The position numbers and the translations under genes are program-made. Shown in pieces: positions 2,053-48,603 of a DNA stretch of 64,000 nucleotides (position 1 is its first letter; every line of letters starts with the position of its first letter). The notes below the pieces were generated by a model, which saw only the letters and a program-made list of their open reading frames with translations, did no database searches and was not told the origin of the DNA. The stretch comes from a virus. The stretch is taken from positions 1 to 64,000 of the IMG/VR virus record IMGVR_UViG_3300007504_000006. One strand, given 5' to 3'.

Positions 2053-2979
2053 ATGAAACTGATTACAGGTAACGCAAATACAAAACTTGCTACTGATATT
2101 GCTAATATTGCCGGCGTTGAATTATGCGAAACTCTAGTAACTAGATTCGCCGACAATGAAATATGGGTAGAAATAAAAGACAACATTCGTGGTGAAGATG
2201 TTTTCCTCATCCAAAGCACATGCAATCCCGCCAACGACAACTTAATGGAATTATTAATAATGGTTGATGCTTGTAAAAGAGCAAGTGCAGGTCGAATTAC
2301 GGCTGTAATACCTTATTATGGTTATGCTAGACAAGATAGAAAACCAGCAGGACGATCACCTATTAGTGCCAAACTTGTTGCTAATATGTTAGAAGCGGCA
2401 GGGGTAGATCGTATGCTAACTATGGATTTACATGCAGGTCAAATTCAAGGTTTTTTTGATATTCCTGTAGATAATCTATATGCCCAACCATTATTTGTTG
2501 AAGACTTATTATCAAGCCCAATGATTAGTGCTGGTAATGCAATAATAGTTTCACCAGATGCAGGCGGAGTTCCCAGAGCAAGAGCAATAGCAAAAAAATT
2601 AAATCTAGATATTGCAATTATAGATAAAAGACGAGATAGGGCTAATGAGTCCGAAGCAATGAACGTCATAGGAGACGTAAAGGGGAAGCAATGCATCATC
2701 GTCGACGACATAATAGATACAGGTGGGACATTAGTAAAAGCCGCACAGGCATTAATAAGCGAAGGCGCCGAAGAAGTGGAAGCATATATAACACACGGTG
2801 TATTAAGCAAAGGCGGAGCGAAGAGGATGGAAAAATCAGCTCTGAATAGATTAGTAATAACTGATACTATTCCTGCACCTGAAAATAAAGTACTAAAAGT
2901 CATTTCAGTTGCGAATATATTTACTGAAGCAATTCGCAGAGTACATCATGATGAATCAATATCAGTATTATTTGAATAA
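2053..2979 (+). CDS. prs: Ribose-phosphate pyrophosphokinase (PRPP synthetase)
   Basis: A full-length 308-residue class I PRPP synthetase, close to the roughly 315 residues of bacterial enzymes. It makes phosphoribosyl pyrophosphate from ribose-5-phosphate and ATP for nucleotide and NAD synthesis. Visible motifs include the N-terminal ATP-site stretch RFADNEIW (about residue 31), IPYYGYARQDRKPAGR (about 87-102), the catalytic loop DKRRDRANES (about 190) and the PRPP-binding loop VDDIIDTGGTL (about 213-223). All key residues appear intact, so it is probably active. The stop overlaps the next ATG (TAATG). In the phage it would act as an auxiliary metabolic gene raising PRPP supply; I see no nicotinamide phosphoribosyltransferase in this window. 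Confidence 0.97.
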   Translation: MKLITGNANTKLATDIANIAGVELCETLVTRFADNEIWVEIKDNIRGEDVFLIQSTCNPANDNLMELLIMVDACKRASAGRITAVIPYYGYARQDRKPAGRSPISAKLVANMLEAAGVDRMLTMDLHAGQIQGFFDIPVDNLYAQPLFVEDLLSSPMISAGNAIIVSPDAGGVPRARAIAKKLNLDIAIIDKRRDRANESEAMNVIGDVKGKQCIIVDDIIDTGGTLVKAAQALISEGAEEVEAYITHGVLSKGGAKRMEKSALNRLVITDTIPAPENKVLKVISVANIFTEAIRRVHHDESISVLFE

Positions 2980-16448: not shown

Positions 16449-19307
16449 CTATAATGCTGTTACATCTTTAACTACAATTATACCATGCATGGGGGCATGA
16501 GCCGTACATTGATAAATGTAATTACCGCTTATTACTTGAGGTACTGTCCAAAATAATGTACCATCAATTTTTCCTTGGGCACTTGAACCATATGACCAAA
16601 CATTAGACGTACTAAGATGCCTTAACCCTGTATCATATGCATTAGTTGTGTTTCCTGTAACACCTTCACCTGCGGCTGTTTTTATAACAAATCCGTGGCC
16701 CGAACAATCTAATGCAAATGCATATGTATGGCCGCCTATAACATATATTGTAGGACTTACTGCCGCACTTCCACCTAAGTCATTTCCTGTTACCGCAATT
16801 GTATCAATTGCAAAATATGTATTTGATATTACATAATCATACACTGGCGTTTGAACAAAAAATGTTCTTGCCGCGGCACGTCTTGACTCATATGCGGCTT
16901 CAGCCGCCGCAAAAGTTACAGTATCATTAGTGGAATTTGTTGTAATGGTTATTCCTGTACCTTCAACTAAAGTTACTGTATCACCTGGTTGATCAGCAGT
17001 AAGAGAATTTTGTCCAGATACTGCAATATTTTTATATGTATCTTGTGTTACTGATGACGCCGCAATTGTTAATGTATCGGTTGTGGAATCTGGTGTAATT
17101 GTAACATTAGAACCACCCACAAATGTTAAAGTATCTGTAGCCGAATCTGCTGTTATTGTGCTACCACCTGATACTGCAATTGAAGTAAATGCTGTTGTTG
17201 CTTGGGCAGAATTAGTAATTGTTATACTATCGGCACTATCGTCGGTTGCGATTGCAATACCTGTTCCTGCAATTACTGTTAATGTATCACCTGTTACAGA
17301 TCCATTATCAGCAACGACATCATTTTGTCCTTGAACACTAACTGTTCCAAAAGCAGTAGTAGGAGTTTGGTTACCACCACCTGATGCAGTAGAATTAATT
17401 GTTAAAGTTTGAGCGGCCGCATCGGTTGTTATTGTGACATTAGTTCCTGCAACAAATTCTAAAGTATCTTCTGAGCCTACCGCAACAACATTGTCTTGTC
17501 CTGAAACAGAAATCGTTTTAAAAACATCTGTACTTAAAGAAGAATCAATAGTAAGAACATCACCAGCAATACTAGTTGTAATATTAGTACCACCAGTAAC
17601 AGTTAATACGTCTGTCGAACTGTTTGCTGTTACTGTTCCAGTATCTGCATTTAGGGTTGCCCATAAATCTTGAGTGGTTCCTCCGCCACCGCCACTACCG
17701 CCGGTGTTTGTAATTGTAATAGTATTTCCTGCTCTTGTAGTATCTATACCAGTACCACCAGCAATAGTAAGTTCATCTGTTACACTTGTTGCTTCTGCTG
17801 ATCCTCCCGAATCTGCTGTAACTTTATAATATACACCTGATGGAACTTCAGTCGATTTTGCTACTTTAATCCATTCTCCACTATTACTAGTTGCAGAATA
17901 ATATAATTCATTATTTGCTACACCTACGCAACCCGGATAAGTTGCCGCATCAATTGCACTTTCTAATCCGCTTTTTAATGAAAAGTTATTTTTAAATTTT
18001 GCATTATGCGGAACTAAAAAATCACCATTAACAGTTAATCCTGTTGCTACTTCTGTTCCTGTAGTTTTTATTATTAAAACACTTGTGTCATGATTTTTAA
18101 AATCAAATAAAGGTCTTGTTGTAATTGCTTCTGGCGTACCATACGAATAATCTACTACTTCTCCGCCTTTTCTAACTATGAAATCCATCATAGAAGTAGT
18201 ACCAGTATCCTTTGCTGTAGGAACTTCACCGATAACACTCATACTAGCAAGAGTTGTACTAGATTCTACTCCTCCTCTAACAGTAGGAGCCAACGTTGCT
18301 GTTGTTGTAGATCCGCTTGACATTTCTACAAAATCATTGGTAGCATCTGAAATTGTACCTCTAAAAAATATTTCTCGATTAGTACTAGCAGGATGATTTA
18401 TTTGAATTTTACTACCAAAGGATAATTGATTTTGAAATATTACATCTCCTCCAAATGTAATATCTCCGGCCAAGGTATAATTACCTGTATTTTTAACGTA
18501 ACCAGGTTCAATTGAAAATACGTTATTGTTTAAGTCTAATCCGGTACCTGGAGTATATGCCAAATCTGGAGCATCAATTGTAATTTCATTAGCATTTTGT
18601 GTTAATGTAATATTAGTACCTTGTTTGATACTTCTAAATTGTAAATCACCTGTAGTATTATCTTTAGCAAAAAATACTTGTACTTCACCTGCACCTCTAT
18701 TAGATGCTAAGTTTGATTCGCCTGTATTTTCTACAAATTCTAATGCGGTTTCGCCTGTGTTAACTCTTAACCATTTATGTTGTTCGCCTGTATAATTACT
18801 TGGAGTATCTGTAAGTCCGGTAAAATCAGAGGAACCGCCTCCTCCGCCACCACCTCCAGTAGGCATATCTACTGGTTTATATTGTTGTGCATTAGATTGG
18901 TATTGGAGTATTTGTCCATCAGTAATGCCCGAATCATCTACATTTAATAAATTAGTAAGATTCTGAGTTGTTATATTTTTTAAGTAACTTTCTAATGAAT
19001 GATCACCCCAAGAGTAAGCAGTTTGTGCATTTGTAAGAGTTGTTTGTGTACTAGCATCTAATGCTATTGTACCAGAAGCAGTTATTGGGCCGCCATCTAT
19101 TCCTGTACCAGTATCAATCTGGGTAACAGTACCTGTTCCAGTACCTACAAATTCGCTATGTAACAGTATTCGGTGTCCTCCTATAGTGGCTCCGTCATGT
19201 ACTCTTAATGTGTTTAGGTCAGTATCTACTGTTACTTCGCCTTGAGCTCCTGTAAATGAAGCATGTTGAGTAGTACTTCCTCTTCTAAATTTTACTTCTG
19301 TACTCAT
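16449..19307 (-). CDS. Tail fibre with C-terminal cupredoxin-like (type 1 copper) domain
   Basis: A 952-residue fibre. The start MSTEVKFRRGSTTQHASF is the usual entry of marine phage fibres. The body is built of repeats such as SGQDNVVAVGSEDTLEFVAG and a DTP module (FTGLTDTPSNYTG, about 155-170). The last 130 residues form a cupredoxin-like domain: GHTYAFALDCSGHGFVIKT supplies a His, and the end loop QCTAHAPMHG gives Cys-x2-His-x2-Met, the spacing of amicyanin-type blue copper sites, so all four type 1 copper ligands appear present. In related phage fibres the same fold is common; whether copper is bound is untested. A poly-Gly linker occurs near residue 150. Confidence 0.85.
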   Translation of the reverse strand: MSTEVKFRRGSTTQHASFTGAQGEVTVDTDLNTLRVHDGATIGGHRILLHSEFVGTGTGTVTQIDTGTGIDGGPITASGTIALDASTQTTLTNAQTAYSWGDHSLESYLKNITTQNLTNLLNVDDSGITDGQILQYQSNAQQYKPVDMPTGGGGGGGGSSDFTGLTDTPSNYTGEQHKWLRVNTGETALEFVENTGESNLASNRGAGEVQVFFAKDNTTGDLQFRSIKQGTNITLTQNANEITIDAPDLAYTPGTGLDLNNNVFSIEPGYVKNTGNYTLAGDITFGGDVIFQNQLSFGSKIQINHPASTNREIFFRGTISDATNDFVEMSSGSTTTATLAPTVRGGVESSTTLASMSVIGEVPTAKDTGTTSMMDFIVRKGGEVVDYSYGTPEAITTRPLFDFKNHDTSVLIIKTTGTEVATGLTVNGDFLVPHNAKFKNNFSLKSGLESAIDAATYPGCVGVANNELYYSATSNSGEWIKVAKSTEVPSGVYYKVTADSGGSAEATSVTDELTIAGGTGIDTTRAGNTITITNTGGSGGGGGTTQDLWATLNADTGTVTANSSTDVLTVTGGTNITTSIAGDVLTIDSSLSTDVFKTISVSGQDNVVAVGSEDTLEFVAGTNVTITTDAAAQTLTINSTASGGGNQTPTTAFGTVSVQGQNDVVADNGSVTGDTLTVIAGTGIAIATDDSADSITITNSAQATTAFTSIAVSGGSTITADSATDTLTFVGGSNVTITPDSTTDTLTIAASSVTQDTYKNIAVSGQNSLTADQPGDTVTLVEGTGITITTNSTNDTVTFAAAEAAYESRRAAARTFFVQTPVYDYVISNTYFAIDTIAVTGNDLGGSAAVSPTIYVIGGHTYAFALDCSGHGFVIKTAAGEGVTGNTTNAYDTGLRHLSTSNVWSYGSSAQGKIDGTLFWTVPQVISGNYIYQCTAHAPMHGIIVVKDVTAL

Positions 19308-19316
19308 TTTGTTTCC

Positions 19317-21341
19317 TTATGCAACTGTTTGCCCTGCAAGTTTATAAATTTTACCTGTTCCTGTAGGAGCATATGATAATCGTGTTATAATATATAATTC
19401 TTTATTAATATCTTCTCCAAACCCTGTAATAAATTCGGTACCAACATCTATTGCTATAGGGTTTAATTGATTTATTTGATACATATCTGGTACTGGTTCC
19501 TTTAAGTAATATAATTTTCCCGAAGGATTGTTCCAATCTGTAGTCCAATCAGCAAAAACATATTTTCCAACTAATTCTGTACAAGTGGCTCCCCTATAAA
19601 CAACCCCACCTATAACTGATAGTCCATTAATTGCTCCGCCTGAATGTGTGTATGATGCAACAGGATTTTCAAAACCATTCATAAATGTATTAACATCTGT
19701 ACCTGCGGCAGTAGCAAGAGCAATACCATGATCTAAATCATATACATTATCTCCTTCTTTTACACTCCATCCATAGTTTTTACCATTTTTAACAATATCA
19801 ATTTCTTCTATAGTATTTTGTCCTACATCCCCTGTCCAACATTTTCCTGTAGTTTGATCTACACTGAGTCCGTATGGATTTCTAAATCCATAAGCGAATA
19901 TTTCTTCTTTATAAGTAGAATGATCTTTGTATGGATTATCTGTTGGTATAGCATAATTTGTATATGCTGATGAACCTATATCTACATTTATTCTTAAAAC
20001 TTTTCCTAATAAATTAGTTCTGTCTTGAGCTAAATGATCTGGATCACCTTGCCCTCCGCCGTCGCCTGTTCCAATATACAAAAACCCATCGGGCCCAAAA
20101 GTTATGGCGCCTCCATTATGGTTACTTGCAGGTTGATCAAATTGTAAAATAATTACCTCAGTACTAATATCTACTGTATCATCATTTGCAGGATCGGTAA
20201 CTGTATACCTAGCCAATATAGATTCGTGATCAATTCCTGCACCCGATTTTGCTTTAGAATAATAAACAAAAACCCAACCATTAGTATTATAACTAGGATG
20301 AAACGCTAATCCTAGTAAACCTCGTTCATCATAAGATGTACTTAAAGATTGTATAGTTGATGATAAATCTAAAAATGGAGTTGACAAAATGGTAGAACCT
20401 TTGTATACTTTAATTTTACCTGATTGTTCTGCAATGAATAATCTTTCATCATGACCTGTATTTGTTAATACAACAGGCCCTTCTAATCCAGTAGTATGAT
20501 CTAAAAATACATTTAAATTAACTGCCGTGTCATCTGAAATAAATCCGTTATCTTGTTCTGCCTCGTGGGCCACTAAATCACCAAAATCTACAGGAATTAA
20601 TCCGTAATCTGTTTTATTAAGGGTATAATCAGGTGTTCGTATTTTTATTTGGTTTGTGCCTTCTTCGCTAATAACAATACCATCACCTGCTAGTAATCTT
20701 TTAAATTCTAAATTAACATTACTTTTTTGTTTAAATATACCTATGCCTTCTGTATTTGTGCCGGCATTGCTTGCACTATTTGCTTCGCCACCTACTGCTC
20801 CTGGAGCAGTTTGCCATGTTAATGTTCCTGTGCCATCTGTCATTAAAAATTGACCAGATGTTCCAGCGGATGAAGGAAATGCTAATTCATTTAATTTTAA
20901 CGCACCACCTGCTCCTACTTCTATTTTTAAATCGGTGTTTAATGCAGATATAATTTTCTTTTCATTTAAATTTAAATCTCCCCCTAATACAGGAGTAGCA
21001 TCATTTTGAACGGCAGTAAATTGTTCTGTGTAAGCCAATGTTTGACTTGAACCAGGTATTGCCCTATATACTACAACGGCTGTTTCGCCTGCTTCTAATG
21101 ATGAACTAAATGCAATTTGTGTTCCACTTGCTAAATTTGTTACACTATAATCAACTCCTGGCTTTTGTGTAACACCATCTATTGTTACATCTAGTGCCGC
21201 AACATCTTTAGGAGAACCTGTTGTCAAGGTAAACGAAGTACCTGGGCCAGTAAATGTATCATACTGAAAGTCAGGTATATTTTGTATATCATCGTAATCA
21301 ACTGCGGCTAAAACCGCTTCATATCGTTGACCATAGTACAT
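19317..21341 (-). CDS. Tail fibre fused to a PQQ-type sugar dehydrogenase beta-propeller
   Basis: A 674-residue protein. Residues 1 to about 270 are fibre-like, starting with a VDGVTQKPGVDYSVTN module. Residues about 275-674 match the glucose/sorbosone dehydrogenase family (PF07995-type, six-bladed propeller): RGLLGLAFHPSYNTNG, NHNGGAITFGPDGFLYIGTG, GGQGDP, QDRTNLLGKVLRINVD, YGFRNPYGLS, GDVGQNTIEEID, GKNYGW, YTHSGG and a closing GKIYKLAG. The His of NHNGG and the Arg-Asn of FRNP correspond to PQQ-contacting residues of known members. There is no signal peptide. It either oxidises surface sugars or, more likely, uses the propeller as a carbohydrate receptor. The fusion looks complete, not a frameshift. 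Confidence 0.88.
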   Translation of the reverse strand: MYYGQRYEAVLAAVDYDDIQNIPDFQYDTFTGPGTSFTLTTGSPKDVAALDVTIDGVTQKPGVDYSVTNLASGTQIAFSSSLEAGETAVVVYRAIPGSSQTLAYTEQFTAVQNDATPVLGGDLNLNEKKIISALNTDLKIEVGAGGALKLNELAFPSSAGTSGQFLMTDGTGTLTWQTAPGAVGGEANSASNAGTNTEGIGIFKQKSNVNLEFKRLLAGDGIVISEEGTNQIKIRTPDYTLNKTDYGLIPVDFGDLVAHEAEQDNGFISDDTAVNLNVFLDHTTGLEGPVVLTNTGHDERLFIAEQSGKIKVYKGSTILSTPFLDLSSTIQSLSTSYDERGLLGLAFHPSYNTNGWVFVYYSKAKSGAGIDHESILARYTVTDPANDDTVDISTEVIILQFDQPASNHNGGAITFGPDGFLYIGTGDGGGQGDPDHLAQDRTNLLGKVLRINVDIGSSAYTNYAIPTDNPYKDHSTYKEEIFAYGFRNPYGLSVDQTTGKCWTGDVGQNTIEEIDIVKNGKNYGWSVKEGDNVYDLDHGIALATAAGTDVNTFMNGFENPVASYTHSGGAINGLSVIGGVVYRGATCTELVGKYVFADWTTDWNNPSGKLYYLKEPVPDMYQINQLNPIAIDVGTEFITGFGEDINKELYIITRLSYAPTGTGKIYKLAGQTVA

Positions 21342-21673
21342 TAACTTCTCTCCAAAACACTTGCAAATATTTCACAATCTGTATGTGTAGCCGCAACTTT
21401 TAATGCGTCATCTGCTTCTAAGTTAATTGGCTTATCCAAACTCAATGTTGTATTCGGTGGTATAGGTACTTTAGATAATACTATGTTATCTGAAGTAGCA
21501 CTATTATCATACACTTTTAATGTAATTTGTACATTAGAAGTAGCATGTTTATTAGCAATATACAAACCATGAATAATTGCCGCGACTTGGTTTGCCGCAT
21601 TTGCTGTATACATTGTTTCGTCGGTATCTGCCGCCGAAATTGTATGACTTGCATTTTTAAATGAACTTGCCAT
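21341..21673 (-). CDS. Small beta-rich virion protein
   Basis: A 110-residue protein made of short beta-strands (for example VQITLKVYDNSATSDNIVL, then LSLDKPINLEADDALKV) with no signal peptide or membrane segment. This strand-rich pattern, with a closing CEIFASVLE, is typical of small structural proteins that sit between fibre genes in marine myophages. The stop overlaps the next ATG (TAATG), indicating coupling to the sugar-dehydrogenase fibre. The likely role is an adaptor or decoration protein; this is inferred from fold style and position. Confidence 0.6.
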   Translation of the reverse strand: MASSFKNASHTISAADTDETMYTANAANQVAAIIHGLYIANKHATSNVQITLKVYDNSATSDNIVLSKVPIPPNTTLSLDKPINLEADDALKVAATHTDCEIFASVLERS

Positions 21674-21683
21674 ATTTTATCCG

Positions 21684-24600
21684 TTATGCGAATGCAATAG
21701 CAAAAGCAATTGCATCGTCTTCTTCTATATAAGCACTTCCGCCAGGTCCACTAACTGCTAAGTTACCTATCTGTATATTGTTGCCTTGTTGTATTACAGA
21801 AATACCTGTTCCTGCTGAAATAGAATGAAATTCTAAATCTACACCTGTTTTTTGTTTAAATACTCCAGTTCCTGTCCCAACATTAGATACAGTATTTGCT
21901 TCACCAGTAGAGGTATCAGGGGCAACACCTGGTTCCCATTTACTAGTTACTGAGTTCCATATTAATACATCATTATTTGCTGGAGCATTTGCATAATCTA
22001 CATCAGCAAGGTCACTTGCATTTTTAGATCCAAAATTTGTATCAACACGAGCCTCAGTATAATATTTATTTGTACTTCCTTCTATAACATTGTCTGTACT
22101 AATAGTTCCGCCAACTGTATAATTTGTTAAATCAGCTTCTCCAAGGTATCCTAATGCGGTTTTATTAGTAAATCCTATCGCGGCATTTGTTTCATCTACT
22201 GTTAATAAAAATGTATCTGATCCTGCAAAAGAAGCAGGAGTATCTGTTAACTCTAAAAATGTAGTAGTAGGTGGTTCTACAAATTCTAAATCAGCACCTG
22301 TTGCGGCAACTCTTAAATATTTTCCTGTTTGCCCGCTCATTGTACTAGGTGTATCAGTAAGCCCTGCAAAGGTTGTAATATCGTCGGGGGCATCAACAAA
22401 CTCCAATGCCGTGCCACCTGTATTAACTTTTATATATTTTCCAGCATCTCCGGTTGAAATACCTGGTGTATCTTGTAATGCAGAAAATGTATCAACTTGA
22501 ACTGGAGGATTAACAAACTCTAATCCTGTTTCATTTGCTTTAATTGCAATATACTTTCCACCTTCATTTGCCATAGTACTAGGTGTATCGTCTAAATTAA
22601 TAAAAGTCTTATCTGTAAAAATAAGACCCGTGGCACCCGAATTAACTGTTACTAATTTACCTTCGTTAGTTGAGTAAGTATTAGGTAAAACATCATTTAA
22701 ATTAATAAAATCTGTAATAGTTGTAGGAACATCTGTAAATTGTAATCCGGTTGCTCCGCTATTAACAATTAACATTTTTCCTACGTTACCAGAAAATGTT
22801 GGAGGAGTATCTGTTTGCCCAATAAATGTTGGATTACCATCTATAGTTACTGTAACGTTATCGCCTACTGCTGACGCATTTACTCCATCACCAACAAAAT
22901 CTAAATAACCGACTTCATATGTTAATGTAGTTCCTTCATTTCTAATGCTTACTTTAGGATAATCAGACCAAATAAATTTATTATTTGCAAAATCATATTG
23001 TAAAAATTTATCGTCATCGCCTTGTACTGGAGTATCAACATCAATTATTTGTCCTAAAGTTAATGCTTTCCATTTATATGAATTAGTTCCATAATCATAA
23101 TATAATACTTTTTCATCGTCTGCTTGTATTGATCCTGCTACATCTAACAATTGGGTTAGTGTGTAATCACGAAATTTAAACGAGGTAGTTGCATGATTAT
23201 AATATGCTATTTGTTGATCATTAGTGGAAGTCAGAGCATCTACATCTTCTAAATTTTTAAGTTCATAGGCTTTCCACTTAAACGATGTTGACGGATGATC
23301 ATAATATAAAAAATTAGTATCATTGCTTCCTGAAACAGGAGCAACATCATATAAATCAGTAAAATTTTCTTGTGTTACATTTTGTAAAAATGTTTGGTTT
23401 ATAAATTCTAAACCTGTACCATCATTTTTAACTTTTACAAAATATCCTGCCGAACCTGTATAATTTGCCGGAGTATCAGTTAAATCTATAAACTCATCAG
23501 GTACACTTACATCAGCAAATTCAAGTGACGTTTCATTAGTAGCAACTTTAACAAACTTTCCTGCTTGGCTAGTGTAAGTACTAGGGGTATCAGTTAAACC
23601 TGTAAAAACGGTTGCACCTGTTGCTGATTTATCATCTAATACCCAAGTACCATTTAAATATGAAATAATTTTACCATTGGATACACCAGTAACATTTACA
23701 TCTGTTAATCCTGCTAATGTATTAGATCCTGTATCTAATTGTGGAGTAAATTTTGTACCATCATATTTTAAAACTTGATTAAGAACAGGAGTTGTTGTGG
23801 TTGTATCTACATCTGTTAAATCATCTAATACAGTAGGTATAGATAATGTCGAATTTACCCATTTATTAGTAGTACCTGCAACCCAACGTAATACCTGATC
23901 AACTGTTGGCGAAGTTGTTGATGTATCTACATCTGTTAAATCATCAATACTAGCAGGAACAACGGTAAGTTCTTCTTTCCATTTTTGAGCAATTGAATTC
24001 CATCTTAAAAAATATCCATTAGTACTAACATTTAACGCCGAAGTATCAACATCTCGTATATCAGTTAAATCATCATCATCCTTATCAAAATAATTTTGGG
24101 TTGCATGATTAGTCCAAGCATGGGCGGCATCCCAATTAGTAATTTTTTGTTGGGTTATTCCAGACGAAACATGAGCACCAAATACAGGATCAGTTTCTGT
24201 ATAAGTTTTTAGGTATCCTTCAACACTATGATCTCCCCATCCGTGGGCTGTGTCCCAATCGGTAATTTTTGCAGTAGTAATATTACCTGCAGGTGAAGCA
24301 AGGAATACAGGATCTTGTTCGTCTAATGGTGTGTATGTAAAAACACCTGTTGTATTATCATACGTTAATGTTGATGTTGCATTTGCTGTTGCATTTGTTA
24401 CAGATAAATCTGTTAAATCTACAGTACCTGATGATCCCCATTCTAATGTCGAACCTGTCGAAGGGAATCGTAATACTTGTCCTGCCGCACCAATAACACC
24501 TGGTATTGTATATTTGCCATCAACAACAATATTGTTATTATTATCTACAATTTCATTTGTTATTGTTAATGTTTTTTGTTGCCATGTAATTGTTGCTCCG

Positions 24601-25880
24601 GACCCATCACCTGATCCGTTTGTATCTTGATTGAAATCATATAATTGTTCAGCAGTATCATTTGCCGCTACTATCTGTAAAAATGCTCCTGCTGAACCAT
24701 CGGTTATTCTGGTTCCAGTAGATTCACCATAAGTAATACCATTGGTATATATCTGACCTGAAGCATGTGTACCATCCGATACAGTTGAAAATTCAAATTG
24801 ACTGTTTACTAATGTTGCATTACTTGTATCAAATTTATATGTGCCTCCTGCAACAAAATTAAAAGATGTAATAGCAGTACCTGCTCCAACTATTCCTGTA
24901 GCATCTTCAAAAATATATTTTCCGCTGTCAAATTTTACATAATATGTTTGAGTAGTTATAGGAGGTGCAGTAGTTGTTAAAACAATACCATTACCTTCGG
25001 CTAAAGTTATTTCATCTACCGCTGTGGCTGTAAGTTTATCTTGGCCTGCTATATTCCAATGTTTAAACGTACTTTCCATAGCAATTTTCATTGCTTTGTT
25101 GCCTAAATCAGTTAATGCAAACCCGCTATCTACATCAAACTGTATCGATGTTATATCTGAATTAGTAACATTTGCACCAGTGCCTGTTTCTTTTACTTCT
25201 AAATTAAAAGTAGTACCGGTACCTCCTGTGAAGTTTTGTAAACCTTCGGCACCAATATATCTATATCCTTTGAGCAAATATACAGAATGTGTGTAAACTC
25301 CACTTGATTGTGTTAATAATGGATCTCTAAGATTTCCATTAGGATTACCTACCATTACAAATACACCAGATTCATAATCCCAGTAATATTCTTCATCTGT
25401 AGATTGTGGATATATTTCTTCGTAATCTTGTCTTGCTGTTAAGTCGTAATTACCATTACCTCCGCCAGCAAGTGCTATTGCAAATTTAGGCAAATATGTT
25501 GCACCATATGTTGCTCTAAGCCAATTAGTGAGTCTAGTAGTACCGTCACCTACTGTAGAACATGCAAGCCATGATCGTTGATCTGCTACAGTAGGATCTC
25601 GTGTTAATTCTATAACACCTGCAGATTCGCCAACTGCGGTACCTGCTACAGCACCATTTTTATATTGATAAGAATTAACAGTAGCAGTATTAACATCACT
25701 GGCGACAGCAGGTATTAAATGACTGTCTAACCATAAATTGTGGGTTGGATTTGGAATAGGACTAACTATGGCTTCGTTATTTGGTCCTTTCTCGTGGTCA
25801 AATGCCGTTCGAGCTTTACCATAATTGACTTTTTTATCAATCCTATTCGTGATTACATCATTTAAATTATATGTCGGCAT
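21684..25880 (-). CDS. Large tail fibre with tandem DTP repeats and a degenerate cupredoxin-like domain
   Basis: A 1,398-residue fibre. About residues 300-440 form a domain resembling the cupredoxin module of marine phage fibres (YKFDTSNATL, then FEFSTVSDGTHASG), but the copper ligands are missing: the expected Gly-His is replaced by Asn-Ser-Gln, and the expected Cys/His/Met loop is replaced by a LYDFNQDTNGSGDG stretch. The middle has repeats on LTDVDT or LTQLLDV. From about residue 755 on there are eight DTP repeats (a Phe strand, L-x-DTP, a Gly turn and GLEFV). The C-terminus is short and acidic. Two bases separate it from the upstream lysozyme fibre. Confidence 0.85.
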   Translation of the reverse strand: MPTYNLNDVITNRIDKKVNYGKARTAFDHEKGPNNEAIVSPIPNPTHNLWLDSHLIPAVASDVNTATVNSYQYKNGAVAGTAVGESAGVIELTRDPTVADQRSWLACSTVGDGTTRLTNWLRATYGATYLPKFAIALAGGGNGNYDLTARQDYEEIYPQSTDEEYYWDYESGVFVMVGNPNGNLRDPLLTQSSGVYTHSVYLLKGYRYIGAEGLQNFTGGTGTTFNLEVKETGTGANVTNSDITSIQFDVDSGFALTDLGNKAMKIAMESTFKHWNIAGQDKLTATAVDEITLAEGNGIVLTTTAPPITTQTYYVKFDSGKYIFEDATGIVGAGTAITSFNFVAGGTYKFDTSNATLVNSQFEFSTVSDGTHASGQIYTNGITYGESTGTRITDGSAGAFLQIVAANDTAEQLYDFNQDTNGSGDGSGATITWQQKTLTITNEIVDNNNNIVVDGKYTIPGVIGAAGQVLRFPSTGSTLEWGSSGTVDLTDLSVTNATANATSTLTYDNTTGVFTYTPLDEQDPVFLASPAGNITTAKITDWDTAHGWGDHSVEGYLKTYTETDPVFGAHVSSGITQQKITNWDAAHAWTNHATQNYFDKDDDDLTDIRDVDTSALNVSTNGYFLRWNSIAQKWKEELTVVPASIDDLTDVDTSTTSPTVDQVLRWVAGTTNKWVNSTLSIPTVLDDLTDVDTTTTTPVLNQVLKYDGTKFTPQLDTGSNTLAGLTDVNVTGVSNGKIISYLNGTWVLDDKSATGATVFTGLTDTPSTYTSQAGKFVKVATNETSLEFADVSVPDEFIDLTDTPANYTGSAGYFVKVKNDGTGLEFINQTFLQNVTQENFTDLYDVAPVSGSNDTNFLYYDHPSTSFKWKAYELKNLEDVDALTSTNDQQIAYYNHATTSFKFRDYTLTQLLDVAGSIQADDEKVLYYDYGTNSYKWKALTLGQIIDVDTPVQGDDDKFLQYDFANNKFIWSDYPKVSIRNEGTTLTYEVGYLDFVGDGVNASAVGDNVTVTIDGNPTFIGQTDTPPTFSGNVGKMLIVNSGATGLQFTDVPTTITDFINLNDVLPNTYSTNEGKLVTVNSGATGLIFTDKTFINLDDTPSTMANEGGKYIAIKANETGLEFVNPPVQVDTFSALQDTPGISTGDAGKYIKVNTGGTALEFVDAPDDITTFAGLTDTPSTMSGQTGKYLRVAATGADLEFVEPPTTTFLELTDTPASFAGSDTFLLTVDETNAAIGFTNKTALGYLGEADLTNYTVGGTISTDNVIEGSTNKYYTEARVDTNFGSKNASDLADVDYANAPANNDVLIWNSVTSKWEPGVAPDTSTGEANTVSNVGTGTGVFKQKTGVDLEFHSISAGTGISVIQQGNNIQIGNLAVSGPGGSAYIEEDDAIAFAIAFA
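22190..23620 (-). repeat. Eight tandem DTP fibre repeats of about 32 residues
   Basis: Within the 1,398-residue fibre, a unit of roughly 30 to 33 residues recurs about eight times: F-x-x-L-x-DTP, a short Tyr/Ser/Gly turn, GKxxKV and a final GLEFV strand. Examples are FTGLTDTPSTYTSQAGKFVK, FIDLTDTPANYTGSAGYFVK and FAGLTDTPSTMSGQTGKYLR. Copies differ at the DNA level. One further copy lies in the fibre at 16449-19307. Confidence 0.85.
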
Positions 25881-35905: not shown

Positions 35906-36540
35906 TAAATAAATCCGTCCTTAACTAATTTTCCTGATTTAAAATCGTTCATAGTAAATTTTGTTCTAAGTTTACTAGGAGTTTGTTGTATTACCATATC
36001 AATTACCAAATTTAACATGCTAGGTACTTTTGAATTAAATCCATCTGAAAATCCTGCTTCTGCTGAATCTGTTTCTACATCTATATAATCGACATCTTGT
36101 CCTAAATCATATGCAAATGAACGAATTAAAACTGGAACATTACTAAACATTAAATCACCATATGCACTAAATTTTAATACAGGTGGAGGAGTTCCTCTTT
36201 TTTTATCATTCATCCCAAAATGCATTTTTGTTACAATACGTAAAAAATGCAAAACTGCAATCATGTAATGCCCTTCTGCCGCAGATTGAGCAGTTAGCGG
36301 ACCAGACACTTGTAAATTAGGCGGTCTACTTTTAGTAAAATAACTAACAGGATAATTTGTATGTGCCGTTTCATATTCACCATATTCTGCTTGATGAGAT
36401 ATATTAATAGTTGGTGTGTAAGGCCAAATTATCCCATTAAATTTTTTAAGGGGTAATAAAATAGGATTTGGTGCACCAGACTCTGTTTCTAATATATCAC
36501 TATTTCTTGGTAACGATACTCTTGCTCGTATATCTTTCAT
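35905..36540 (-). CDS. Baseplate tail-tube cap or initiator protein (gp48/gp54-like)
   Basis: A 211-residue protein with a strand motif FNGIIWPYTPTINISHQAEY (about residues 34-53), then a Pro-rich turn KSRPPNLQVSGPLTAQSAAE and a helix HYMIAVLHFLRIVTKMHFG. This pattern recalls T4-type gp48 or gp54 proteins that start the tail tube on the baseplate. It is shorter than T4 gp48 (364 residues). The gene overlaps the preceding one by four bases (ATGA) and precedes the gp53-like wedge, consistent with a baseplate role. I cannot decide between the gp48 and gp54 type. Confidence 0.6.
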   Translation of the reverse strand: MKDIRARVSLPRNSDILETESGAPNPILLPLKKFNGIIWPYTPTINISHQAEYGEYETAHTNYPVSYFTKSRPPNLQVSGPLTAQSAAEGHYMIAVLHFLRIVTKMHFGMNDKKRGTPPPVLKFSAYGDLMFSNVPVLIRSFAYDLGQDVDYIDVETDSAEAGFSDGFNSKVPSMLNLVIDMVIQQTPSKLRTKFTMNDFKSGKLVKDGFI

Positions 36541-37175
36541 CGCCTAATTCCTCGCATTACTATGCCAAATATTCTATCTCTAGATTTAGAATCGGTTTGT
36601 ATGTTTCCAAAATAATCATTGAATAATTCTCGCATTTGTAATTGATCATCTTCTTTTATTATATCGGATCTAAATTTTGAAGCGTTCATTCCGCCTTCCA
36701 TACTAGGTACTGTATATTTGTAAGAACGCTCTTGTCCTGTTTCAGGGTCTACAGAAGGTTCAGGTAATATATTTTCAGTATATTCTTGTACAACATTACC
36801 GGATTTTAATCGTTCAGCATCCTTAACACCTAATGCTAATACTACATAATTAGAAGAAGGATCCCTTCCTACTTTAGTTAAATCAGGTCTGTATGGCATA
36901 GTTTCTATAATATGATCTTTTGGTACTCCATACATTGTTGCAATTATATCTGCCTTCTCCTGAAATGTAAATGGATCAGTAGAGTAGTCACCTGCCGCAT
37001 GTGCCTGTTGTTGTTTTTTACCAAACATAGTAGCGATAAATACGTTGTTGGCACCAAACTTTTCACTTAAATGTTTATATACACCATAATGCCCTTTATG
37101 CATAGGCTGGAATCTGCCTCCATAAAATACAACCGGTGTTTTAGCAATTGCTTCAAAAAGTTCAAGAATTCTCAT
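36537..37175 (-). CDS. Nucleotidyltransferase of the NMN adenylyltransferase/cytidylyltransferase superfamily
   Basis: A 212-residue protein with the hallmark nucleotide-binding motif GRFQPMHKGHYG (about residues 20-31), whose G-R-F-Q-P-x-H-x-G-H form is typical of NadM-type NMN adenylyltransferases, and a C-terminal MNASKFRS loop that resembles the ISSTxxR phosphate-binding motif. It is the first gene of the leftward block, 10 to 15 bases after a late-like box. If active, it would adenylylate NMN or activate another small phosphate. With prs at 2053 it could join an NAD-related pathway, but no partner gene is visible here. Confidence 0.78.
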   Translation of the reverse strand: MRILELFEAIAKTPVVFYGGRFQPMHKGHYGVYKHLSEKFGANNVFIATMFGKKQQQAHAAGDYSTDPFTFQEKADIIATMYGVPKDHIIETMPYRPDLTKVGRDPSSNYVVLALGVKDAERLKSGNVVQEYTENILPEPSVDPETGQERSYKYTVPSMEGGMNASKFRSDIIKEDDQLQMRELFNDYFGNIQTDSKSRDRIFGIVMRGIRR

Positions 37176-45982: not shown

Positions 45983-45990
45983 TATTTATA
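45983..45990 (-). promoter_or_regulatory. Perfect T4-late-like box TATAAATA (leftward)
   Basis: On the minus strand TATAAATA at 45990 to 45983 lies 28 bases before the gp26-like start at 45954, with AAGGAGG directly before that ATG. This is an exact match to the T4 late promoter core. Confidence 0.6.
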
Positions 45991-48567: not shown

Positions 48568-48603
48568 TTGACAAAACACATATAAGAGCATATAATATAA
48601 ATA
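48568..48603 (+). promoter_or_regulatory. Overlapping sigma70-type and T4-late promoters before gp20
   Basis: TTGACA (48568-48573), a 17-base spacer and TATAAT (48591-48596) form a perfect sigma70-type promoter. A perfect late box TATAAATA (48596-48603) shares its last base. A short leader with AGGA (48611-48614) then leads to the ATG at 48621. Two promoter types at one site imply transcription of the capsid operon by both early and late modes, or a chance overlap in AT-rich DNA. Confidence 0.7.

Follow-up and report, generated by a model that had tools for sequence, protein, structure and literature searches.

Locus and fibre stem

The DNA analysed here (the window) comprises 64,000 nucleotides, positions 1 to 64,000 of the 86,248-base virus record IMGVR_UViG_3300007504_000006, which encodes a T4-type portal (Gp20) and a Gp23 closest to those of jumbo-type T4 relatives (e.g., Sinorhizobium phage Phosso and Cronobacter phage GAP32). 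From its relatives, many of them cyanophage-like, we infer that the virus is marine. The phage also carries a ribose-phosphate pyrophosphokinase gene and a cytidyltransferase-like gene (window 2053-2979, plus strand, and 36537-37175, minus strand). The gene under study is a minus-strand open reading frame (ORF) of 674 codons, with exactly the ends assigned to it in an earlier, sequence-only reading (ORF list); the plus strand of the same interval contains many stops. It lies in a row of tail genes with products of 1860, 1398, 110, 674, 952, and 1089 aa, and the genes around it match tail and baseplate PHROGs (Table 1). Its ATG overlaps by one base the TAA of the 110-aa gene before it, and a Shine-Dalgarno-like site lies upstream; both indicate that it is read within this row. 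Ahead of the operon of the 674-aa gene, no copy of the T4 late-promoter string TATAAATA was found. In the whole window this string occurs twice versus 15 times expected, both times just before genes (45983-45990 on the minus strand; 48596-48603, ahead of gp20).

Table 1. Features of the fibre-propeller gene and adjacent tail genes, in window coordinates
Feature	Position	Strand	Basis
952-aa tail protein, Mtd N-terminal domain, cupredoxin-like C-terminus	16449..19307	-	PF18454 9.8e-15; phrog_677
Fibre with C-terminal GSDH-type propeller, 674 aa	19317..21341	-	ORF; PF07995 E 8.8e-47; same fusion in L001-L006
GSDH-type propeller (residues 272-674)	19320..20528	-	AlphaFold2 pLDDT about 90 over 280-670; Foldseek
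Phe637, Thr639 in place of Arg406, Arg408 of bacterial enzymes	19425..19433	-	Alignment
Thr600 in place of Lys377 (PQQ carboxylate) of bacterial enzymes	19542..19544	-	Alignment
Gly507-Gln508, s-GDH Gly247-Pro248 calcium loop	19818..19823	-	Alignment; Gln as in PQQ-bound 3das
Arg487-Asn488, equivalent of s-GDH Arg228-Asn229	19878..19883	-	Alignment
His408, equivalent of s-GDH catalytic base His144	20118..20120	-	Alignment with Asd enzymes
Linker (residues 241-271), low model confidence	20529..20621	-	pLDDT below 50
Fibre module 3 (residues 183-240), 'GEANSASNAG...FKQKSNVNLEF'	20622..20795	-	In-window fibre similarity
Fibre module 2 (residues 96-182), carries 'GTSGQFLMTDGTGTLTW'	20796..21056	-	L075 and L149 similarity
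Fibre module 1 (residues 1-95), strand-rich, carries 'IDGVTQKPGVDY'	21057..21341	-	PHROG and L075 similarity
110-aa gene directly upstream of the 674-aa gene	21341..21673	-	PHROG 1276; slot marker
Shine-Dalgarno-like site GGAGAG	21348..21353	-	Sequence, upstream of the 674-aa gene's ATG
1398-aa tail fibre, has module 3	21684..25880	-	PHROGs tail families

The first 270 residues were described in the sequence-only reading as fibre modules, and they are indeed shared with other fibres. Module 1 matches a PHROG tail fibre family (1.8e-5 over residues 44-94), and its residues 13-93 match at 39.5% (E 7.5e-13) the fibre found in the same slot of another viral contig, L075. Module 2 likewise matches the L075 fibre (37%, E 2.7e-12) as well as neighbour fibres in contig L149, while module 3 matches the end of the phage's own 1398-aa fibre (52%, E 5.5e-12) and the window's 952-aa protein (31%). 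Modules homologous to known or neighbouring fibres, in a tail-gene locus of a genome with Gp20 and Gp23, are what a T4-like tail fibre should possess. An INPHARED search with the N-terminal 270 residues returned only Agrobacterium phage Atu_ph07 (29%). In the AlphaFold2 model, pLDDT falls below 50 over residues 96-270, and this stem region is unordered. Since no hydrophobic N-terminal segment is present (mean hydropathy over 18 residues peaks at 0.58 within the first 60), the protein lacks a signal peptide, as had been noted earlier.

The 110-aa gene has more than 200 relatives in viral contigs and marks a slot at which fibre ends are exchanged: in many of these contigs the next gene has a similar N-terminus of the type M-x-Y-[ILM]-G and a different end. 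In L075, the gene after the 110-aa one encodes a fibre that is homologous over residues 13-180 but has no Pfam match and no glucose/sorbosone dehydrogenase (GSDH) domain, so that the propeller described below is one among several ends used there. An exchangeable tip on a conserved stem is the arrangement expected of a receptor-binding protein. The slot fibres of two further contigs, L076 and L077, are cut by contig ends. Directly after the L075 fibre lies a 941-aa ORF (L075:7425-10250) with subtilisin-like motifs (LDSGV, GHGTYCA, GTSFSTPMIAG), the Pfam match of which is to an Ig domain only; its motifs suggest that it is perhaps a protease within the fibre cassette.

Propeller domain and its pocket

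The sequence-only reading assigned the last 400 residues to the GSDH family from four motifs (RGLLGLAFHP, NHNGGAITFGPDG, YGFRNPYGLS, and GDVGQ), all of which are present. The family assignment was confirmed by profile search, PF07995 (GSDH) matching at E 8.8e-47 (160.4 bits versus a gathering score of 25); the assigned extent holds for the fold, which spans about residues 272-673, but not for the Pfam match, which covers residues 297-596. A phmmer search of the PDB placed hedgehog-interacting protein (HHIP) first (2.6e-38), with PQQ aldose dehydrogenases next (7e-23 and weaker), and these scores put the similarity far above chance. With 30 aligned sequences from the window and the loci as input, AlphaFold2 produced a confident propeller (pLDDT about 90 over residues 280-670). 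The top Foldseek matches in the PDB are all GSDH-type, as a six-bladed propeller of the s-GDH/Asd type should give: HHIP is best (6.9e-29), followed by E. coli Asd, Thermus 2ism (TM(target) 0.86, rmsd 3.2), s-GDH, and S. coelicolor 3das. Comparison of the five distinct sequences of the window type gave dN/dS values of 0.085-0.39 for the propeller and 0.02-0.30 for the stem; purifying selection acts on both, and the propeller changes faster than the fibre part, as is expected of a tip.

The equivalents of the s-GDH residues His144, Arg228-Asn229, and Gly247 (His408, Arg487, Asn488, and Gly507) are invariant in all 30 distinct phage sequences, in which 61 of 351 columns are invariant. In s-GDH, His144 is the catalytic base, aided by calcium and Arg228, and Asn229 lies at the quinone (PMC6881810). 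The basic residues that would anchor the PQQ carboxylates are missing: no phage sequence has a counterpart of Lys377, Arg406, or Arg408, and the positions are non-basic in most of 33 cellular relatives too, in a last-blade alignment that is less sure because hhalign ends near residue 600. Arg406 is presumably the further conserved PQQ-contact arginine of s-GDH. Lys377 and Arg408 are PQQ contacts in s-GDH, for which another conserved arginine has also been described, and fungal AA12 enzymes hold PQQ without Lys377, by means of His, Trp, and other Arg residues (PMC6881789). The phage domain scores 83.2 bits against TIGR03606, the NCBIfam model of the PQQ-dependent s-GDH subfamily, far below its cut-off of 434.55. 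The earlier suggestion that the domain may even use PQQ to oxidise surface glycans is therefore weakly supported: the His and Arg-Asn at the quinone end are present, but Thr600, Phe637, and Thr639 occupy the three anchor positions, and the closest solved relative is a binding protein. Judged from these residues, PQQ binding is unlikely and enzyme activity doubtful; the AA12 precedent, together with Arg340, His566, and Trp599, which are invariant in the phage sequences, leaves PQQ binding a small probability.

An active quinoprotein on the virion would take up environmental PQQ and calcium and oxidise capsule, LPS, or exopolysaccharide sugars, loosening or marking the surface during adsorption. 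The invariant catalytic His, Arg-Asn, and calcium-loop Gly speak for such an activity; PQQ-bound 3das likewise has Gln at the Pro248 position, and Arg340, His566, and Trp599 could take on roles like those of the AA12 residues. Against it, besides the missing anchors and the TIGR03606 score, no clade member with demonstrated PQQ activity was found, and HHIP, the nearest solved relative, is a binder. Enzymatic oxidation at the fibre therefore has a small, if appreciable, probability.

A cupredoxin-like domain was observed at the C-terminus of the adjacent 952-aa protein (window 16452-16886, minus strand), which matches phrog_677, a baseplate wedge-tail fibre connector family. Its model is of modest confidence (pLDDT 69); the first Foldseek matches are amicyanin, rusticyanin, and plastocyanin (about 1e-4), and the sequence profile matches plastocyanin at 0.0096. 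His871, Cys934, His937, and Met940 are invariant in three relatives and follow the C-x2-H-x2-M pattern of amicyanin, so this second tail protein is predicted to have a blue-copper-like site, which may be unrelated to the propeller. More cupredoxin-like copies are present in fibre and baseplate proteins: in the window's 1398-aa fibre (21684-25880, minus strand, about residues 310-455), where the copper ligands are lost, in L006 (6692-7108), where they are kept, and in L150 (4741-5097), where they are kept in part. Were the propeller an active quinoprotein, this blue-copper-like neighbour would matter greatly. A quinoprotein-type propeller and cupredoxin-like domains occur together in one L150 protein, and the two could conceivably act as redox modules on marine T4-like tails, jointly oxidising sugars of the host surface and passing electrons, or sensing contact by redox; such cooperation is considered very improbable.

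Recurrence and origin in uncultured phages

The same fibre-propeller fusion is found in six IMG/VR contigs from different datasets at 71-100% identity; two of them, 100% identical, may be the same virus as the window. The sequence is of metagenomic origin only, which raises the question of a chimeric contig or chance similarity; the PF07995 score and the conservation of the fusion across the six contigs refute both, and their probability is practically nil. In related contigs the fusion sits in the fibre cassette. Viral genes of this family might also be read as auxiliary metabolic genes encoding soluble enzymes: AA12/L-sorbosone dehydrogenase has been listed for mangrove soil viruses (PMC6460857), the domain is a GSDH family member, and its cellular relatives appear exported. 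The absence of a signal peptide, the 270 residues of fibre modules, and the cassette position rule this out on architecture, and a metabolic role is regarded as extremely improbable.

The propeller also occurs in other tail proteins, a recurrence that went beyond the sequence-only reading. In L149, a 484-aa short fibre consists of about 100 residues of fibre start and the propeller, and adjoins a fibre with the same MSKILVNEIG start. The L150 protein, at least 2,404 aa long, matches a baseplate wedge, contains cupredoxin-like domains, and ends in the propeller. In 34 contigs (L151-L153 and L155-L185; 23 distinct propellers), the GSDH propeller is internal to a protein of about 1.9-3.1 thousand residues with a baseplate-wedge N-terminus. 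A T4 portal is present in 6 of 8 records tested, the remaining two being 20-23 kb fragments. The internal position in the 34 contigs favours a purely structural role, in which the propeller would be a spacer, trimer organiser, or docking site for another tail protein and would have no host ligand. However, the propeller is the C-terminus in the window type, L149, and L150, L075 manages without it in the same slot, and the pocket residues are conserved, which makes a structural piece quite improbable.

The first patterns used for distant viral relatives returned the same six contigs only, and a profile including cellular relatives gave the rest; L154 and L194 were left out as cellular or proviral in appearance. 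The baseplate part of the 34-contig type has 290 INPHARED relatives, mostly cyanophages, in none of which GSDH was found; the domain is thus found repeatedly in uncultured phages but not in isolates that have been sequenced. Elsewhere in INPHARED, the only relatives were four Acinetobacter records (yliI-annotated, 28-29% identity), which were set aside because they resemble cellular genes. At the top of the BFVD matches the only viral GSDH folds are four giant-virus proteins, and no phage protein of this kind is among those listed. With no such fusion in either collection and no description of a GSDH propeller on a phage tail fibre found in the literature, the novelty suggested earlier is supported, and the arrangement appears to be previously undescribed.

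In phylogenetic trees, a single clade (support 100/100) unites the window type with L149 and L150 and groups with Thermoplasmatota and Desulfobacteraceae proteins (95/96); since this one clade occurs in three architectures, the propeller has moved between tail proteins. The baseplate-wedge propellers form a second clade (100/100), apart from the first, yet the data do not reject a common origin of both (p-AU 0.355 and 0.319), and two acquisitions are therefore not claimed. The nearest cellular relatives are exported bacterial and archaeal GSDH proteins (L020-L067), the closest (L020 and L021) being from Thermoplasmatota; identity is 50% to Thermoplasmatota and 45-47% to Desulfobacteraceae proteins.

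Proposed function and known systems

The reading favoured here, held with somewhat better than even confidence, is that the protein is a T4-like fibre whose propeller tip, of enzyme descent, is displayed on the virion and binds a host ligand, probably without PQQ chemistry. A propeller taken from the exported GSDH clade would have become the C-terminal fibre tip; residues 1-270 would anchor the protein to the tail and lengthen it; and the propeller would use its old active-site face to bind some component of the host cell or of its extracellular matrix, a glycan or protein of the surface being the likeliest candidate. Virion display and receptor binding, both proposed in the sequence-only reading, would fit this evidence. 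In favour of binding, the phage protein has no signal peptide, whereas the N-termini of its cellular relatives look exported; the closest solved relative by sequence and structure, HHIP, is a binding protein; the PQQ anchors are absent; and the propeller recurs in other tail and baseplate proteins. Against it stands the retention of His408, Arg487, and Asn488 in every distinct phage sequence, which exceeds the needs of a pure adhesin unless these residues serve the fold or the binding pocket.

With this domain, phage adhesion proteins gain a new domain family, one that turns up repeatedly in uncultured T4-like phages, and some viral 'sorbosone dehydrogenase' genes, sometimes read as metabolic, would be virion parts. 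With its kept catalytic triad and missing cofactor anchors, it provides a clean test case for a receptor binder like HHIP versus another cofactor arrangement, and the compact propeller can probably be expressed easily.

Among known systems, the best solved match by both sequence and fold is the C-terminal propeller of HHIP (7pgm, 3ho4; 28% identity), a GSDH-type propeller used in binding that has the DERGLL, FGPDG, and GFGED motifs in common with the phage domain. The propeller-EGF unit of HHIP binds Hedgehog proteins and glycosaminoglycans (PMC8660895). HHIP differs in that it is secreted by animals, has CRD and EGF parts, carries His-Asp where the phage domain has Arg-Asn, and takes Hedgehog proteins and heparin as ligands. 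With a net charge of -21, the phage propeller is acidic and is judged unlikely to bind heparin as HHIP does. The soluble aldose sugar dehydrogenases (E. coli YliI/Asd 2g8s, P. aerophilum 3a9g, S. coelicolor 3das) and s-GDH (1cru/1cq1) are six-bladed like the phage domain and share the equivalents of His144, Arg228, Asn229, and Gly247, but are exported single-domain enzymes of 18-23% identity with the Lys377, Arg406, and Arg408 that the phage lacks. The exported bacterial and archaeal GSDH proteins have the same pocket residues and the same missing anchors as the phage domain, but are free proteins without fibre modules. GSDH proteins of pithoviruses and marseilleviruses (BFVD A0A481Z5E4 and others) have the same fold (E down to 1.3e-30), but belong to viruses of eukaryotes that have no tail, and one carries the annotation of a leucine-rich repeat protein.

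Propellers are also known from phage adhesion proteins, including the endosialidase tailspikes of K1F and phi92, PhiKZ gp131C, and PRD1 P2 (PMC4901313), which belong to other propeller families with no GSDH member. The trimeric receptor-binding protein Gp45 of phage phi11 has an enzyme-like propeller with a cavity modelled to hold GlcNAc (PMC4901313); it resembles the phage fibre in carrying an enzyme-like propeller in a tail receptor-binding protein, with a pocket thought to hold sugar, and differs in having five blades, glutamine cyclotransferase rather than PF07995 as its nearest enzyme relative, and an S. aureus siphophage as its source. HHIP and phi11 Gp45 are thus precedents for the step from an enzyme-like propeller to a binder.
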